A DNA stretch of 47,427 nucleotides from an uncultured Eubacteriales bacterium (GTDB taxonomy: Bacteria; Bacillota; Clostridia; Christensenellales; Aristaeellaceae), in contig CADBCY010000021.1 in assembly GCA_902793325.1 (NCBI GenBank), positions 1 to 47,427 of the forward strand. Direction: 5' to 3'. The position numbers and the translations under genes are program-made. Below the pieces are notes generated by a model. It was not told where the DNA came from. It made no database searches and saw nothing but the letters and a program-made list of their open reading frames with translations. This document shows positions 4,032-37,706 of this stretch, piece by piece (within the stretch, counting starts at the first letter, position 1; each line of letters starts with the position of its first letter).

Positions 4032-5261
4032 ATGAACGGAAAGAGAAACTTCAACAAATTCCTGCTCCTGTGGGCGGGCGAACTGGTCTCCTCCATTGGC
4101 GGCGGGCTGACCAGCTTCGGCCTGGGCGTGTACATCTTCCAGCGGACGGGCAGCGCCGCGAGCATGGCGCTGGTGACGCTGCTGGGATTTCTGCCGACGC
4201 TGCTCCTGAGCGTCCCGGCGGGCGTGCTCGCCGACCGCTACGACCGGCGGCTCCTGATGATGGTCGGCGACGGCTGCTCGGCGCTCGGCATCCTCTATAT
4301 CCTCGTCTGCATGGCGCGCGGCGGCGCGTCGCTTGCGCAGATTTGCTTCGGCGTGTTCGTGAGCGCCGTCTTTTCCGCGCTCCTGGAGCCCGCCTTCCGG
4401 GCGACCATCACCGACCTGCTGACCAAGGAGGAATATTCCCGGGCCAGCGGGCTGGTCTCCCTGGCCGGGAGCGCCCGGTACCTGTTCTCGCCGGTCATCG
4501 CGGGCTTCCTGCTGACGGTGAGCGATGTAAAGCTCTTGCTGGTGATCGACATCTGCACGTTCTTCCTGACGGTCGTCAGCGCGGCCGTCGTCCGCAAGGG
4601 CATCGGCAGCCAGGCGGCGGAGAAGAAGGAAGCGTTCCTCCAGAGCCTTGGAGAGGGATGGCGCATCCTGCGCGCGAAGAAGGGCGTGCTGATCCTCGTG
4701 GCGCTGTCTTCCGGGATCACGCTGTTCATGGGCATGTTCCAGATCCTGGCGGAACCGCTGATCCTGTCCTTCCGGGACGCAAAGACCCTCGGCGTCGCGG
4801 AGACGGTCTGCGCGTGCGGCATGCTGGCGAGCGGGCTCGTCCTCGGCGTCCGGGGATTGAAGGGGCGCTATGTCCGGACGCTGGGCCTCTCTCTCATACT
4901 GGCCGGTCTGTTCATGTGCGGGTTCGGGCTGTTTGAGAACATGGTCCCGATCTGCGCCTTCGGGTTCCTGTTCTTCGCGGCGCTGCCCTTCGCGAACAAC
5001 TGCCTGGACTATCTGATGCGGACGAATATCCCGGACGAAGCCCAGGGAAGGGCCTGGGGAATGATCGGGTTCCTGTCGCAGATCGGATACGTCGTGGCCT
5101 ACGCCGTCTCCGGTGCCCTGGCGGATGCCCTCGGGCGCATCGGTGGCCTCGGCGTCGGAAGGGGCGCGGCATGGGTCATCATTGCCGCGGGGGCAGCCCT
5201 CGCGCTGATCGCTTCCGCGGTCCTGCTGCCCAAGAGCATCCATGAACTGGAAAAGCAATGA
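4032..5261 (+). CDS. MFS transporter, drug-exporter type
   Basis: A 409-residue, 12-helix major facilitator of the EntS/macrolide-efflux-like group. The loop 2-3 signature is GVLADRYDRRLLM, about residues 63-75. Pairs of hydrophobic helices continue to near the C-terminus. The ribosome site AGGAAG before 4023 favours ATG 4032 over GTG 4023. It lies 12 bases after tetR, so it is the likely main target of that regulator, expelling a toxic compound that also acts as inducer. No substrate can be named. Confidence 0.9.
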   Translation: MNGKRNFNKFLLLWAGELVSSIGGGLTSFGLGVYIFQRTGSAASMALVTLLGFLPTLLLSVPAGVLADRYDRRLLMMVGDGCSALGILYILVCMARGGASLAQICFGVFVSAVFSALLEPAFRATITDLLTKEEYSRASGLVSLAGSARYLFSPVIAGFLLTVSDVKLLLVIDICTFFLTVVSAAVVRKGIGSQAAEKKEAFLQSLGEGWRILRAKKGVLILVALSSGITLFMGMFQILAEPLILSFRDAKTLGVAETVCACGMLASGLVLGVRGLKGRYVRTLGLSLILAGLFMCGFGLFENMVPICAFGFLFFAALPFANNCLDYLMRTNIPDEAQGRAWGMIGFLSQIGYVVAYAVSGALADALGRIGGLGVGRGAAWVIIAAGAALALIASAVLLPKSIHELEKQ

Positions 5262-6341: not shown

Positions 6342-8453
6342 TTACGCGGGATGCCCGTTTTCGCCGCCTTTGTCCATGGCGGCCAGGGACTGATACGCCT
6401 CGCAGGTGCTCAGCAGCTCTTGATGCGTGCCCTCGGTCAGAATCCTGCCGTCCTTCATGAAGAGGATGCGGTCGGCCCCGGCGATGGTGGAGAGCCGGTG
6501 GGCGATGATGATGACGGTCCTTCCCCGGCGCATGTTGTCGATCGCCTGCTGAATCTTGGCCTGCGTCGCGTTGTCCAGCGCGGAGGTCGCCTCGTCCATC
6601 AGTATGATCCGGCTGCCCCTCAGCATGCAGCGGGCGATGGACAGCCTCTGCCGCTGGCCGCCGGACAGGTTGACGCCGCCCTCGCCGATCAGCGTGTCGT
6701 AGCCGTCGGGCATGCTTTGGATGTCCTCGTCGATGCAGGCCATGCGGCACACCTGTTCCATTTCCTCGTCGGTCATGTCCTCCTTGACGATCTTTAAATT
6801 GTCTCGGATGGACATGCGGAAGATATAGGGGTTCTGCGTGACGACCGACATGTTGTTGCGGATGGATTCGCGGGTCAGCTCCCGGATGTCGATTCCGTCC
6901 AGCATCACACGCCCGCCCGTGGCCTCGTAGAGCTTGGAGATCAGGTTGAACGTGGTGGTCTTGCCGCAGCCGCTCTTTCCCACGAGGCCGACCATTTCGC
7001 CCGCGTGAATCGTGAAGGACAGGTCGTTCAGGACCTTTCGGCTCCCCTCGGGATCGTAGGAGAAGCTGACGTGGTCGAACTGTATCTCGCCCCTGGGTGC
7101 GGTCAGCTCGGTCTTTCCGAAGCGCTCCTTGGGGAACTCCGGGCTGTTGAGCAGGGCGTGGACCCGTTCGTTGGAGATGTTGAAATCGGCGATGGAATCC
7201 ATGAAGTTGCCGATGATCTTTACGGCGTTCGGCCCCAGCTCGGCGTAGTAGTTGTAGAAGACCAGCGCGATGCTGGGAAGGATGAGGTTCTTGGAAATGA
7301 GCCAGGTCAGCAGCGCGATCAGCGCGAAGGTGCCGACCTCGCCGAATTCCCAGCGGAACAGCTTGGCGTACCAGGAGCGGTTCTGCATGTACAGCCGCTT
7401 GGAGTTGGCCTCCTCGATGCGTCCGTTCAGCTCTTTGCTGAACCGGCCTTCGCTGTTCAGCAGCCGCACGTCCTTCGCGCCGCGCACCATTTCGCCCACC
7501 AGGCCGGAAAAGCGCTCGTTCGCGGATCGGAAGATGCGGTCGTCCTTGTAGAGGCGCCGGGTTCGCCACAGCTCCATCACGCACTGGGAACCCATGATGA
7601 GAATGACCAGTACCGCGATGCTGGGATTGACCAGAAACATGGCGCACAGCACGCCGAAGTAGTTGAGCACCTGCGTGATCATGTCGGCGATGTTGTTGAA
7701 GCCGGAGGCGATGCGGCCTGTGTCCCCGGTGATGCGCTGTATGAACAGCCCGCTGCCCTTTTCATCCAGGCACTGGCTCTCGATTTGCAGCACGTTCGCC
7801 ACCAGGTCCTTCTCCAGCGCGGACAGCGTTCGCGTATAGGCGCGGTTGTAGCCCATGTTGGAGAGCACGAGAAAGAGATTGCGCAGGAGCTGTACGCCCA
7901 GCAGCGCCAGCACGATGTAAATGACGCGATGGGTCTCGTTATGGGTATAGGCGATGATGATGCGCGCGCTGATGGCCGGGGCCACAATGCCCATCACGGC
8001 GCTGATGATCTGGCAAAAAACGGAGACGCCCAGGGTCTTGCGGCTGTTCACGGTATACTTCCATGAGAACAGGAGGTTCTTCATGGTGGTATTGTACAGC
8101 GTGAATACGAACAGGATCCGGTTTTGGCCCTTCTCAAAGCGCCATACCGGCAGGTTCCGGAAGCGATGCAGGCGACCGATCTTCATCAGCACGAAGCTGT
8201 CCTGTTCAAGGGGATTGAACGCCTCGCCGCCGACGGTCAAGCGGACGTTGAAATCTCCGTTCCACTTGCGAAAGTGCAGGCTGAACGGCGTGCTTTCACC
8301 GGAGTGCTCCCGGTAGAGCAGCAGGATCTCCTCGATCGCAAGCCGAAAGATGAGGCGGAGCTTGTCCTCTATGCCGGCGCGTTCCAGCTCGGTCGTCGCG
8401 GCGTCGACGGCCTGAGCGATCTCCTGTCCGCGCAACGTTCCCTTAATCTTCAC
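6342..8453 (-). CDS. ABC exporter (permease-ATPase fusion) with an N-terminal RsbW-like domain
   Basis: A 703-residue half-transporter. From about residue 150 it has a six-helix type IV exporter domain. The nucleotide-binding domain has Walker A GKSGCGKTT (about 490), signature LSGGQ (about 595), Walker B IILMDEA (about 617) and the H-loop histidine in IIAHRLS. Unusually, residues 1-110 are a soluble domain. Its helix with AIEEILLLYREHS and later GGEAFNPLEQD resemble the N-box and G1 loop of RsbW/SpoIIAB-type anti-sigma kinases, in decayed form. I chose GTG 8453 because AGGGGGA lies 7 bases before it, and because a consensus promoter (8497-8525) falls inside the longer frame. It is probably a homodimer exporting lipid, peptide or drug. 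Confidence 0.88.
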   Translation of the reverse strand: MKIKGTLRGQEIAQAVDAATTELERAGIEDKLRLIFRLAIEEILLLYREHSGESTPFSLHFRKWNGDFNVRLTVGGEAFNPLEQDSFVLMKIGRLHRFRNLPVWRFEKGQNRILFVFTLYNTTMKNLLFSWKYTVNSRKTLGVSVFCQIISAVMGIVAPAISARIIIAYTHNETHRVIYIVLALLGVQLLRNLFLVLSNMGYNRAYTRTLSALEKDLVANVLQIESQCLDEKGSGLFIQRITGDTGRIASGFNNIADMITQVLNYFGVLCAMFLVNPSIAVLVILIMGSQCVMELWRTRRLYKDDRIFRSANERFSGLVGEMVRGAKDVRLLNSEGRFSKELNGRIEEANSKRLYMQNRSWYAKLFRWEFGEVGTFALIALLTWLISKNLILPSIALVFYNYYAELGPNAVKIIGNFMDSIADFNISNERVHALLNSPEFPKERFGKTELTAPRGEIQFDHVSFSYDPEGSRKVLNDLSFTIHAGEMVGLVGKSGCGKTTTFNLISKLYEATGGRVMLDGIDIRELTRESIRNNMSVVTQNPYIFRMSIRDNLKIVKEDMTDEEMEQVCRMACIDEDIQSMPDGYDTLIGEGGVNLSGGQRQRLSIARCMLRGSRIILMDEATSALDNATQAKIQQAIDNMRRGRTVIIIAHRLSTIAGADRILFMKDGRILTEGTHQELLSTCEAYQSLAAMDKGGENGHPA

Positions 8454-8957: not shown

Positions 8958-9029
8958 CCGCCTGGTGACAGGCATACGCCGCCAAAGCGCGGTGAACTGA
9001 ATACGACACAAGAAGTCTTCGAGCCTCTT

Positions 9030-9072
9030 CGCCTAAGGCATGCGCTATGGCGTCCGGGCCGCGCGGAAACGC
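9030..9072 (+). ncRNA. Candidate structured RNA: 11-nt tetraloop receptor and GAAA hairpin upstream of modA
   Basis: CCTAAG (9032-9037) and TATGG (9046-9050) match the classic 11-nucleotide GAAA-tetraloop receptor. It is closed outside by CGCC/GGCG (9030-9033 with 9049-9052) and inside by a small GC hairpin. Fourteen bases downstream, GCG-GAAA-CGC (9063-9072) supplies a GAAA tetraloop. The position, about 270 bases before a molybdate and molybdenum-cofactor operon, suggests a regulatory RNA such as the Moco riboswitch class. I cannot confirm the class from memory of its consensus, and the short motifs could be chance. Confidence 0.35.
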
Positions 9073-9086
9073 AGGGGAAGCCTCCC

Positions 9087-9227
9087 CAAGGGTTGTCCCG
9101 GAAACGGGCCAGCCTTCCTCATTGAAAAGAAGACCGACGAGAGCACGCGCCGTCCCTTTTTCAATCGGGCTTTCCGCAAGGGCTGTCTTGGAAACGAGGC
9201 AACCTTCCGAATTGAAAAGGGGACGGC
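9087..9227. repeat. Two 48-bp direct repeats with an inverted third segment
   Basis: Copies at 9087-9134 and 9177-9224 align without gaps and agree at 38 of 48 positions. Each holds a GAAA hairpin: CCCG-GAAA-CGGG at 9097-9108 and CTTG-GAAA-CGAG at 9187-9198. The stem bases differ but still pair, which points to selection on RNA structure. Between them, 9149-9168 is nearly the reverse complement of 9207-9227 (about 20 bp, one bulge). It can also pair in part with 9121-9129 of the first copy, so two folds compete. The rest of 8958-9320 contains no gene I can support. Confidence 0.7.
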
Positions 9228-22839: not shown

Positions 22840-22877
22840 GGGACATATCCTTCTTGAGTCCGAAGAAGTCGATACGT

Positions 22878-23058
22878 TCTTCTCACAGGCAGGTCTTCTG
22901 ACTCAGCTTCATCGCACGTGGCCGCCTTCTCGACTTGCGCCAATGACGTATGGTCCCATGCTCCGCTTCACAGCAGCGGTCCTGTCGGAGACTTGCACTC
23001 CGTTCCCTATTGTCCTTGCTCGCCGCGCACAGGCTGGCGGCAAGGCACCTGTGAATAC
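22878..23058 (-). promoter_or_regulatory. Cobalamin (B12) riboswitch
   Basis: Read on the minus strand the conserved blocks appear in order: TTCACAGGTGCC (start of P1/P2), AATAGGGAA, GAGTGCAAGTCTCC, GACAGGACCGCTGCTGTGAAGC, GGCCACGTGCGATG and the B12 box AGTCAGAAGACCTGCC (22888-22903). P1 closes with CCTGTGAG. This is a full aptamer of the class that binds adenosyl- or methylcobalamin. No terminator with a T-tract follows, so control is probably translational or Rho-assisted. Downstream are a 21-codon frame and then the alcohol dehydrogenase. Confidence 0.95.
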
Positions 23059-23082
23059 CCGGTTATTCTGTTTTCAACGGAT

Positions 23083-35989: not shown

Positions 35990-37282
35990 CTATTCCCCCG
36001 CGTTTTCTTCATCCGAATACCGGTACTTTTTGAGCTTCCGGCCGGTCGTGAGGCAGAGGACAACCCCGGCCACGCCCAGCGCGAACATCATCAGCGCCGC
36101 GCCGGAACCCTTTCCGCTCCCGAACAGCGCGGTCAGCAGCCGGTTTGAACGGTTCATGTGCATGAACGGTTCGCAGACGTTGTCCACCATGAACCCGCCC
36201 AGCGCCAGGCCGATGGGAATGGTAAAGAACTGCAGCGTGTTCCGGCAGGCGTAGACCCTTCCCTGCAGGGCCACCGGAATGCTGTTGCGCATGATGACGT
36301 TCTGGTTGGCGCTCATGACGGGAACCAGCATCCAGCCGATCACCTGTCCGACGCACCACAGGATGGGATTTCGGGAAAACGCCAGCAGGAAGTTCTCCGT
36401 CCCCAGGGAGAACAGCATGGTCAGGTAGATGACGCGCACCCGGTCTTTGGGCTTGGGCATCGCCGTGGCCAGCAGGCTGCCCAGCACCATGGCGATGCCG
36501 GAGCAGGAGGTCACGATCCCGAGCGCGCCGTTGCCGTGCAGGGGGATCACCAGCGCGGGCAGCACCGCGTCGAAGGCCGAGGCGATCAGGTTCACCCCCG
36601 ACATGAACAGGATCACGTGCAGCACCAGCGGATGCTCCTTCAGAAACTGCAATCCTTCCCGCGCCAGCTTCAGCACCTTTTCCTTCTTCCCGGCTTCATC
36701 GCGAACCTCGGGAAGCCGGATGAACAGCCAAAGCGCCAGGAAGGCGACGGCAAACGTCGTCAGGTCCACGGCAATCACGGCGTCCAGCCCCGCCAGCCCG
36801 TAGAGCGCCGAGGCGAGCAGCGGATTGCCGATGGCGATGACCGACCGGGACAGCGACTGGCAGGCGCTCGTCTTCTGATAGTACGCCCTGGGGACCACCA
36901 ATGTGTAGGCGACCTCCGACGCCGGCTGCTGCACCGTGTTCATCAGCCCCGAGGCCGCGTTGACGGCGTACAGGTGCCACATGCACAGCCGATCGGCCTT
37001 GTACAGCACAAACACCAGTACGGTGGTCAGCGCCGCCAGCGCGTCGCACGCCAGCATGGTTTTCTTCTTGTCGTATTTATCCGTGATCGCCCCGGCAAAG
37101 ATGCTCATGACCACATACGGCGCGTAGGTGCATATGGTCAGGGCGGCGGTGCCGAGGGCCGACCCCGTCTTTTCGTACAGCCACAGTGTCAGCGCGAAAC
37201 CGGTCATCGCGCTGCCCAGCTGCGACAGGCTCTGCGTGCTCCAGAGGATATAGAAATCCCGCAAGCTATGTTTGTTTTTCAT
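35990..37282 (-). CDS. MFS exporter under leader-peptide control (macrolide-efflux-like)
   Basis: A 430-residue, 12-helix major facilitator. The loop 2-3 signature GAITDKYDKKKTML and SLSRSVIAIGNPLLASALYG fit the MFS_3/Mef group of drug exporters. AAGGAG lies 8 bases before ATG 37282 and is itself part of an RNA helix (37286-37293 with 37320-37327). With the leader peptide and alternative hairpins upstream, this points to induction by a ribosome-targeting antibiotic, as for mef, msr and erm genes. The actual substrate is not known. Confidence 0.9.
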   Translation of the reverse strand: MKNKHSLRDFYILWSTQSLSQLGSAMTGFALTLWLYEKTGSALGTAALTICTYAPYVVMSIFAGAITDKYDKKKTMLACDALAALTTVLVFVLYKADRLCMWHLYAVNAASGLMNTVQQPASEVAYTLVVPRAYYQKTSACQSLSRSVIAIGNPLLASALYGLAGLDAVIAVDLTTFAVAFLALWLFIRLPEVRDEAGKKEKVLKLAREGLQFLKEHPLVLHVILFMSGVNLIASAFDAVLPALVIPLHGNGALGIVTSCSGIAMVLGSLLATAMPKPKDRVRVIYLTMLFSLGTENFLLAFSRNPILWCVGQVIGWMLVPVMSANQNVIMRNSIPVALQGRVYACRNTLQFFTIPIGLALGGFMVDNVCEPFMHMNRSNRLLTALFGSGKGSGAALMMFALGVAGVVLCLTTGRKLKKYRYSDEENAGE

Positions 37283-37285
37283 TTT

Positions 37286-37384
37286 CTCTGCTCCTTATCA
37301 CATTCGTATTTGTCACAATGAGCAGAGTCTGAGGAAATGCAGATCAAATTCCCTCCATACAGGCTCCTCAGGCTCTGCATGGAG
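37286..37384 (-). promoter_or_regulatory. Translational attenuator: three overlapping RNA helices before the MFS gene
   Basis: On the minus-strand RNA: helix 1 pairs 37375-37384 with 37353-37362 (10 bp, one G-U). Helix 2 pairs 37365-37378 with 37322-37335 (13 of 14). Helix 3 pairs 37320-37327 with 37286-37293 (8 bp, perfect) and covers part of the MFS ribosome site. Helix 2 shares bases with both 1 and 3, so the choices are 1+3 (site closed) or 2 (site open). The leader peptide gene runs into helix 1. This is the erm-type layout. Confidence 0.75.
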
Positions 37385-37406
37385 CGAAGACAATGCAGCG
37401 CTTCAT
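37368..37406 (-). CDS. Leader peptide of the MFS attenuator
   Basis: Twelve codons, MKRCIVFAPCRA, then TGA. A GGGGGG ribosome site lies 5-6 bases before ATG 37406. Codons 9-12 and the stop lie in the first strands of helices 1 and 2. A ribosome stalled around codons 5-8 would block helix 1 and free the strand of helix 2, exposing the MFS ribosome site. Too short for family comparison; the call depends on the surrounding structure. Confidence 0.65.
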   Translation of the reverse strand: MKRCIVFAPCRA

Positions 37407-37486
37407 GGGTGCCCCCCCTTTTTTCGTATGATATGGCGCGGTCAAAGCCGTGCCTTGCGCGGCGATGCGCTTCCGTTCGCTTACAT

Positions 37487-37535
37487 AAGTGACCCTTCGT
37501 TCACTTATTGTAGTGAACGAAGGGTCACTTGTCAA
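37487..37535 (-). promoter_or_regulatory. MFS promoter inside a perfect 19-bp inverted repeat
   Basis: AAGTGACCCTTCGTTCACT at 37487-37505 is exactly repeated in reverse complement at 37512-37530, with a 6-base centre. On the minus strand the promoter TTGACA (37530-37535), 17-base spacer, TACAAT (37507-37512) occupies the same bases, so a dimeric repressor bound here would exclude RNA polymerase. The -35 is a perfect consensus. The remaining part of 37541-37706 holds nothing I can identify. Confidence 0.8.
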
Positions 37536-37706
37536 GACTTCCAGAAATAGTTTACATCAATTTCCCAAACCGTCGCCAATATCGCAGCATGGCGTGGTTT
37601 TTCTTCGTAAACGGCTCCCCCGGGACGGCTTCGGCCGGCGGCGCGCTGACCGGCCCGCATGGCGACGGTGTGGACGAGGCGCCTGAAGGCGCGGCGCGGG
37701 ATCGGG

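Follow-up and report, generated by a model that had tools for sequence, protein, structure and literature searches.

The closest described systems are leader-peptide attenuators. Genes of the pC194 cat type are chloramphenicol-inducible by such attenuation, and in cat-86 the ribosome reportedly stalls at leader codons 5-6. The mef(E)/mel (msrD) attenuator has a leader peptide as well, RLR, IFVI and IAVV are macrolide arrest motifs, and cmlA is an MFS exporter for chloramphenicol. Chloramphenicol is the drug associated with CAT, and Cfr is associated with drugs that act at the peptidyl-transferase centre, phenicols among them. According to the available part of PMC8987054, arrest by chloramphenicol and linezolid is strongest with Ala as the penultimate residue, and less so with Ser or Thr. 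The available part of PMC10192921 names KNAD as a chloramphenicol-dependent arrest peptide in the cmlA leader.

Here, we describe an element in front of an MFS exporter gene which is almost certainly a translational attenuator, and probably one of the cat type, sensing phenicols and built on a three-helix switch of the erm type. Leader-peptide attenuation is already known; what is new is the combination, its spread, and a leader centred on cysteine. A PMC literature search, covering titles and abstract starts with few subscription journals, revealed no description of the element among the matches listed.

Layout of the locus

The window, i.e., the whole stretch of 47,427 nucleotides that was analysed, carries the following features of the element and its exporter.

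37507..37535, minus strand: promoter-like TTGACA-17-TACAAT, sigma-70-like (11 of 12 matches)
37412..37418, minus strand: leader ribosome site, a G-run 5 nt 5' of the ATG (from the sequence)
37368..37406, minus strand: leader ORF MKRCIVFAPCRA with stop TGA (ATG 37406-37404, 12 codons 37406-37371, TGA 37370-37368)
37392..37397, minus strand: codons 4-5 (Cys-Ile); on stalling, codon 4 is predicted to encode the penultimate residue and codon 5 to occupy the P site (from in silico folds and residue counts)
37353..37384, minus strand: helix 1, off state, 37375-37384 with 37353-37362 (10 bp, one G-U)
37322..37378, minus strand: helix 2, on state, 37365-37378 with 37322-37335 (14 positions, one C-A mismatch)
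37286..37327, minus strand: helix 3, off state, 37320-37327 with 37286-37293 (8 bp)
37291..37296, minus strand: exporter Shine-Dalgarno (SD) AAGGAG (from the sequence)
35990..37282, minus strand: MFS exporter of 430 aa, MFS_1 / TIGR00900-like (codons 37282-35993; from the ORF and profiles)

A 12-codon leader with a strong ribosome site had been proposed in a sequence-only reading of this DNA. The leader ORF is indeed there, and so is a ribosome site; its strength was overstated, the site in the window being a plain G-run, with GGAG present at most 20 nt upstream in 72 of 94 leaders. As a control for the promoter-like site, shuffled sequence contained 0.2 such sites on average. A perfect inverted repeat (37487-37530; 19-nt arms, 6-nt spacer) overlies the spacer, the -10 box and the start of the exporter promoter, and looks like an operator. 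It occurs once in the genome; no long inverted repeat was found upstream of the four relatives L003, L005, L006 and L012, and a plasmid DNA search with the promoter region as query gave no match.

The exporter matches Pfam MFS_1 (E 1.2e-25) and remains under the cut-offs of the Mef and TIGR00900 profiles; the profile search revealed no match to phenicol-exporter families, and no solved structure matched it. Its nearest named resistance families, both far under cut-off, are the macrolide pumps Mef(A) and Mef(C). Together with the erm-like architecture of three helices, this kinship would fit a macrolide-responsive attenuator of the erm/mef type, in which a macrolide stalls the ribosome in the exit tunnel and the exporter is a Mef-like macrolide pump. 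The Mef(A) profile, however, gives 103.8 bits against a curated cut-off of 675. That the exporter removes the inducer, whichever this may be, has in our view about an even chance.

Just downstream of the exporter lies a flavodoxin/FMN-reductase gene (PF02525, PF03358; 35165-35860), and a gene of this kind (cluster C3) is found near the exporter in seven other loci. Elsewhere in the window, Rfam finds a Moco (molybdenum/tungsten) riboswitch at 9005-9148 (+) and a cobalamin riboswitch at 22871-23067 (-), and a second, distant MFS protein with 22% identity to the exporter is encoded at 4035-5129 (+).

Pairing of the three helices

The leader region of the window folds at -57.1 kcal/mol (z = -3.8; equally stable dinucleotide shuffles 0 of 200), and the free window RNA folds into helices 1 and 3. 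Helix 2 overlaps helices 1 and 3, excluding both, and the 3' strand of helix 3 covers the GAG of the exporter SD (AAGGAG, 37296-37291). Window folding and compensatory changes in homologues thus confirm the three helices of the earlier reading at their coordinates, along with its claims that the middle one excludes the others and that the last lies over part of the exporter ribosome site.

The loci are mostly metagenome assemblies, and sequences from kin are not independent. Of the 49 long forms introduced below, 42 were aligned, omitting the near-copies L022 and L079 and the insertion-bearing L041, L043, L069, L071 and L077. Both states are kept in this set: the share of paired cells was 99.3% for helices 1 and 3 and 99.5% for helix 2, compared with 35-54% and 30-57%, respectively, once the partner was slid by 1-3 columns. 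Paired cells and doubly changed cells lay above all 500 shuffles; the doubly changed pairs of helices 1 and 3 numbered two, a count reached by 84 of 500 shuffles and so unexceptional. Forty-five more diverse rows, paired to 96.5% in helices 1 and 3 and to 94.3% in helix 2, revealed changes on both sides in 6/10 pairs of helix 1, 8/14 of helix 2 and 1/8 of helix 3, and their counts of doubly changed pairs were reached by 0 (helices 1 and 3) and 2 (helix 2) of 500 shuffles. Further pair types for helices 1 and 3 were not clearly above the shuffles, 62 of 500 reaching the count in the 45 rows and 315 of 500 in the 42. Helix 3 gives little covariation power because part of it is the ribosome site; in the window, L003 and L081, a U-A pair of this helix has become C-G by changes on both sides. 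Both the leader frame and the pairing proved conserved in homologues, and on this count the earlier reading is not refuted.

A search of 37230-37560 in Rfam gave no match at the gathering score, five microRNA-family matches, all far under that score, being discarded. Transcription attenuation was rejected, no terminator-like site having been found.

Distribution among exporter loci

From 96 relatives of the exporter, 80 loci were kept, making 81 with the window. Leaders were called by the rule of an ATG 21 nt before the CTCC-type site at codon 8, and are present in 73 of the 81 loci, 71 by rule and two (L007 and L070) placed by hand, as 49 long and 24 short forms. The leader of L007 carries a 1-nt deletion and is frameshifted (position 2460). 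Two further loci (L020, L051), with a leader one codon shorter, are found by the covariance model R2 (E 1e-11 and 7e-9), and by model search the element is absent from the remaining six of the 81 (L004, L008, L017, L047, L054, L056). In L047 and L054, both without a leader, the exporter begins right after the stop of a flavodoxin/FMN-reductase-like gene, which suggests translational coupling to that gene. In L081, TGG replaces the leader stop TGA of its relatives (position 633), and the frame runs on to a stop before the exporter. A second, distant exporter-like frame was seen in L058 at 6777-7268 (+), with 25% identity over 164 aa and cut by the locus end.

A second set came from 291 genomes drawn evenly from the class; it partly overlaps the first (the exporters of L087 and L089 are identical to those of L034 and L046). 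Of these genomes, 23 had an exporter relative at E <= 1e-60. Among the 23 non-window loci, 19 (L087-L105) carry the leader by rule; these are all 19 relatives with an intact upstream region at 48-75% identity. As for the others, L106 is cut by a contig end, L107 and L109 match R2 and bear another leader, and none is present in L108. Two records from a plasmid collection (L085, L086) carry the leader, too.

Butyrivibrio and a few neighbours have the short form, in which a single hairpin directly follows the leader, its 3' strand being the exporter SD; examples of such leaders are MINCSVYAPCR and MVICSANAPFSTR. Two subtypes, aligned for 21 of the 24 short forms, have different but complementary strands, namely CTCCATGC/GTATGGAG and CTCCTTTTTC/GAAAAAGGAG. 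The Butyrivibrio short form is derived: on a tree of 104 exporters spanning Bacillota, Spirochaetota (Treponema) and Chloroflexota, the short label needs two changes, and the leaderless label five, at least four by starred branches. The same element thus stands before the same MFS exporter in three phyla, with compensatory changes. No family of neighbouring genes recurs in more than 8 of 81 loci, as judged by a crude ORF picker that missed the exporter itself in one locus, and leader and exporter therefore appear to have moved as a unit.

Predicted position of the stalled ribosome

For each P-site codon, the RNA free downstream of the ribosome was folded and the cost of opening the exporter SD computed, assuming a footprint whose last covered nucleotide is +15 from the first P-site base. 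In 67 long forms, free RNA had a median cost of 5.6 kcal/mol; with the ribosome in place, the median was 5.7-7.5 at codons 1-3, 3.1 at codon 4, 2.2 at codon 5, 7.4 at codon 6 and 8-10 at later codons. In 27 short forms, it was about 12 at codons 1-3, 4.3 at codon 4, 0.3 at codon 5 and at most 0.6 thereafter. The minimum fell on codon 4 or 5 in 65 of the 67 long forms (58 at codon 5; the exceptions L072 and L085 at codon 3), compared with 6 of 70 spacer-shuffled controls. At codon 5 the cost lay under that of free RNA in 63 of 67 long forms and under 2 kcal/mol in 26 of 27 short forms. Expressed as the first free base, the SD is open at about +26 to +29 in long forms (26 members with distinct leaders) and from +27 or +28 on in short forms (15 such members). 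The two designs agree best on codon 5, and by these folds a stall with codon 5 in the P site would very probably open the exporter SD. This supports in silico the earlier proposal that stalling on early to middle leader codons opens translation, and confines it to the neighbourhood of codon 5.

In the window itself, the cost falls from 12-14 to 6.7 kcal/mol at codon 5, helix 3, which extends imperfectly to 17 nt, staying in the minimum-energy fold. With helix 3 this stable at codon 5, switching would depend on co-transcriptional (kinetic) folding; either helix 2 outpaces helix 3 during RNA synthesis, or this copy is weak. One may go further and suppose that the element is real in the relatives and that the window copy no longer switches, helix 3 being too stable and helix 2 bearing its C-A mismatch. 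The residual cost, set against a median of 2.2 in the 67 long forms, and the retention of helix 3 are what such a loss would predict; yet the promoter-like site, both ribosome sites and the reading frames of leader and exporter are intact, a ribosome at codon 5 still lowers the cost by about 6 kcal/mol, and helix 3 shows the matched change shared with L003 and L081, so that we regard a dead window copy as unlikely and continue with a functional switch.

Arrest at Ala8-Pro9 was also considered and rejected: in that position the ribosome would hide the greater part of the 5' strand of helix 2, the median opening cost of the long forms is 8-9 kcal/mol at codons 8-9, and 4 of 71 unique leaders have Leu in place of Pro9.

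Conservation of the leader peptide

Among 93 readable leaders (L007 left out), position 4 is Cys in 81, Thr in 5, Ala in 4, and Ser, Met and Ile in one each, i.e., Cys, Ala, Thr or Ser in 91. Codon 4 lies outside the three helices, as do codons 2-7 in general; in the window, weak pairing with other parts is possible for the TGCA of codons 4-5. When codon 5 occupies the P site, position 4 becomes the penultimate residue and position 6 the A-site residue. All 71 unique leaders have Ala, Val, Asp or Gly at position 6, and the residue at position 7 is nearly unconstrained (entropy 3.65 bits). Gly, which according to the available part of PMC10192921 counteracts chloramphenicol, occurs at position 5 or 6 in five of the 71, and this speaks against a phenicol. 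Codons 8-12 are within helices 1 and 2, and the conservation of APCRA is therefore partly an RNA constraint; where Pro9 is changed to Leu, the helix changes to match. Hence, positions 4 and 6 rather than the C-terminal half are the candidates for specificity, which they may set.

When the penultimate residue was tested against Ala, Ser and Thr, 81 of the 93 leaders had Cys, 10 had one of these three and 2 had Met or Ile, Gly occurring in the leaders of two CAT-family loci described below (L130, L133). Neither Cys nor this Gly belongs to the chloramphenicol rule as given in the available part of PMC8987054.

The abundance of cysteine could also mean that the leader senses slow translation in general, or a shortage of charged Cys-tRNA at codons 4 and 10, and not one drug class. 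Cys stands at position 4 and at position 10 in 60 of 71 unique leaders each, and the bmrB leader responds to several drugs according to the available part of PMC4191407. Waiting at codon 4, however, places codon 3 in the P site, where the median cost is high (5.7 in long and 12.0 in short forms); moreover, Cys4 is replaced in 12 of 93 leaders and Cys10 lies within helix 1. We therefore hold this explanation to be improbable and retain a drug-dependent stall at codon 5.

Regarding macrolides, R/K-x-R/K occurs in 5 of 94 leaders, that of the window not among them, but RLR, IFVI and IAVV in none of the 94; KNAD is likewise found in 0 of 94.

Conservation of codons 8-12 by pairing is also what a leader-independent, riboswitch-like RNA switch would entail, the ORF being kept only because its codons overlap the helices. 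Against this stand the conservation of codon 4 outside the helices and the absence of a match to any Rfam family. The length of the leader before codon 8, too, varies in whole codons (six more in L070; one fewer in L098, L020 and L051) with constant spacing from position 4 to the helix, L007 being the one frameshift, and the derived short form keeps the leader and the stall geometry with a single hairpin.

The element in front of other genes

A covariance model, R1, built from 34 exporter leaders only, was run over 391 genomes of the class, a draw overlapping the 291-genome one, and matched 44 genomes (46 places) at E <= 0.1. At E <= 1e-4 there were 25 places, 22 before members of the exporter family (20 clear relatives, the window itself and L134, a distant member with 36% identity) and three before CAT-family genes (L129, L130, L133; E 1e-6 to 2.5e-5). 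L130 matches Pfam CAT at E 4e-57 and L129 a solved type III CAT at E 6e-47. These CAT-like proteins match Pfam CAT and solved CATs, and at 210-214 bits they are under the NCBIfam CatA cut-off of 270, so that chloramphenicol is only their presumed substrate. The leader of L129, MKFCIAVFPCKA, is of the exporter type; those of L130 and L133, MKRGLDAAPCEA and MKRGLDNAPCEA, have Gly at position 4. The stall test was clean in one of the three loci, L130 (lowest at codon 5, 0.7); L129 was lowest at codon 6 (2.5; 3.1 at codon 5), and L133 was nearly flat (2.8 at codon 5, lowest 2.6 at codon 10).

Five of the weaker places, L135-L139, comprise one Cfr gene, one exporter relic and three without a convincing element. 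The Cfr behind L139 reaches 598 bits, over the curated cut-off of 550. Its element has E 0.008 per genome with R1 over the 391 genomes, alone a chance level, and 30.2 bits (E 6.5e-6 over 184 kb of chosen loci) with R2, the model of 35 rows that includes the three CATs; its leader frame differs from that of the exporter type. The link to CAT-family genes, like the leader frame, the mutually exclusive helices and the spread, is seen directly in the sequences; that to Cfr is weaker. No Cfr protein was found at E <= 1e-100 in the 291 genomes, G318, which holds L139, apparently being outside that draw, and upstream of cfr(B), cfr(C) and a Paraclostridium catA (L161, L160, L162) there was no model match.

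Over 398 genomes of the phylum, R2 matched 21 at E <= 0.05: four before exporters (the window, L115, L184, L186), one before an exporter relic (L183), five before genes assigned to the CD3324 family (L185, L187, L189, L194, L195; two by scoring against the family model, three alike by eye), and 11 others, 10 of which showed no convincing element by eye (the eleventh being L196). A further 175 genomes, from the class of G412, gave six matches, of which exporter L221 and CD3324 gene L222 were new and L223 yielded nothing.

In all, the element was seen before genes for small HTH-like proteins of the CD3324 family (NF040785) in L185, L187/L206, L189, L194, L195, L218 and L222. By eye, helix 1 is read in a different frame in L185, L189, L195 and L222 (giving ..LLHAKS.. 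or a similar peptide), as it is in the Cfr locus L139. The upstream regions of other CD3324 genes (L202, L203, L204, L208-L211) are long and unlike these, and contain short ORFs together with hairpins that are in some cases terminator-like by eye, and one plasmid copy adjoins a FusB/FusC gene; CD3324 is possibly a general antibiotic-response gene.

The same helix read in a second frame before CD3324 and Cfr genes would suit the riboswitch-like explanation. The CAT locus L143, however, 53% identical to L130 and of the short cat design (leader MKRGLDEAF), keeps the MKRGLD start of L130 and L133 with a different hairpin. Considering also the conserved codon 4, a switch that works without its leader seems very unlikely, and we hold to leader-dependent attenuation.

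In L183 and L136, the element is followed only by a C-terminal stretch of the exporter (residues 380-426, E 3e-5, and 377-411, E 0.005); both are probable relics of internal deletions in which the leader was kept. In viral contigs, the leader pattern CTCCATGCAGRGYYTGAGG had no occurrence and no exporter protein was confirmed; the helix partner was present in 2 of 20 pattern matches, both preceding exporter relatives (54% and 61% identity).

Proposed mechanism

That one element precedes CAT-family genes, a Cfr and the exporter suggests a drug acting at the peptidyl-transferase centre, with phenicols as the first candidates. Given the cat-like geometry, the residue at position 4 and the CAT-family and probable Cfr genes, a phenicol or another inducer of that centre is more likely than a macrolide. 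Since the element also precedes CAT-family genes and its stall codon is that of cat leaders, the macrolide explanation, nearest Mef profiles notwithstanding, appears unlikely, and a phenicol-like inducer is reasonably likely.

Without drug, ribosomes would finish the 12-codon leader, helices 1 and 3 would form and the exporter SD would be closed. We infer that the ribosome is halted when codon 5 has reached the P site, by a drug bound in its peptidyl-transferase centre that is most likely a phenicol or acts like one; residue 4 (Cys here and in most relatives, mostly Ala, Thr or Ser in the others) is then penultimate. With the assumed footprint, the 3' edge of the ribosome would lie at leader nt +28, masking the 5' strand of helix 1 and leaving nt +29 and onwards free. 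Helix 2, which starts at nt +29, could then form, separate helix 3 and open the exporter ribosome site.

More tentatively, and with less than even confidence, the loci may represent a large undescribed class of drug-sensing gut attenuators with arrest on a penultimate Cys, common to MFS exporters, CAT-family, Cfr and CD3324 genes and moved between phyla with the gene; on this view, a second reading frame is used before the CD3324-family HTH-like proteins, and the specificity lies outside the Ala/Ser/Thr rule. If it were true, a natural peptidyl-transferase inhibitor would be common in rumen and gut. The exporter family gains a testable inducer class with a predicted stalled codon. The natural variants of position 4 (Cys, Ala, Thr, Ser, Met and Ile before exporters, Gly before two CAT-family genes) offer a probe of how the drug-bound ribosome reads the leader, and the element, since it also precedes CAT-family, Cfr and CD3324 genes, could be used to look for antibiotic-response genes that have gone unrecognised.

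Comparison with known systems

The mef(E)/mel (msrD) macrolide attenuator precedes a Mef-family MFS pump, according to the available part of PMC4335068, and here, too, an MFS exporter follows; that attenuator is called transcriptional there, whereas no terminator-like site is found at the window element. The cmlA leader likewise places a chloramphenicol arrest peptide before an MFS exporter, but exporter family and hosts differ from ours, and its KNAD motif does not occur in our leaders.

As in ermC-type attenuators, described in the available part of PMC4191407, the helices are mutually exclusive, the last one covers the SD, and a stall in the leader would open it. In contrast to the erm type, the leaders lack the motifs RLR, IFVI and IAVV, an exporter takes the place of the methyltransferase of ermC, and the competing helix overlaps leader codons 10-12, which demands an early stall.

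The cat attenuators (pC194, catA7, catA8) share with the element a short leader, an SD-covering hairpin that starts near leader nt +22, and an SD that opens from codon 4-5 on. In the same stall test, pC194 cat (MKKADK) gave 15.1, 14.7, 14.8, 4.9 and 1.0 at codons 1-5, and in two enterococcal cats (both MKKSEDYSS) and one Priestia cat (MKKSEKFTS) the cost fell between codons 3 and 5 as in pC194. The four cats examined have Ala or Ser at position 4 and a single hairpin, whereas our leaders mostly have Cys, else Ala, Thr or Ser, and the long form of the window has three helices; the known attenuators control cat, and the element here mostly precedes an exporter. Of the erm-like attenuator that the sequence-only reading had proposed, the three-helix logic therefore stands, and the stall geometry and position 4 amend it to the cat type. 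The stall geometry of cat and the three-helix switch of erm are thus joined in one family, before one exporter group, in gut and rumen bacteria of three phyla.
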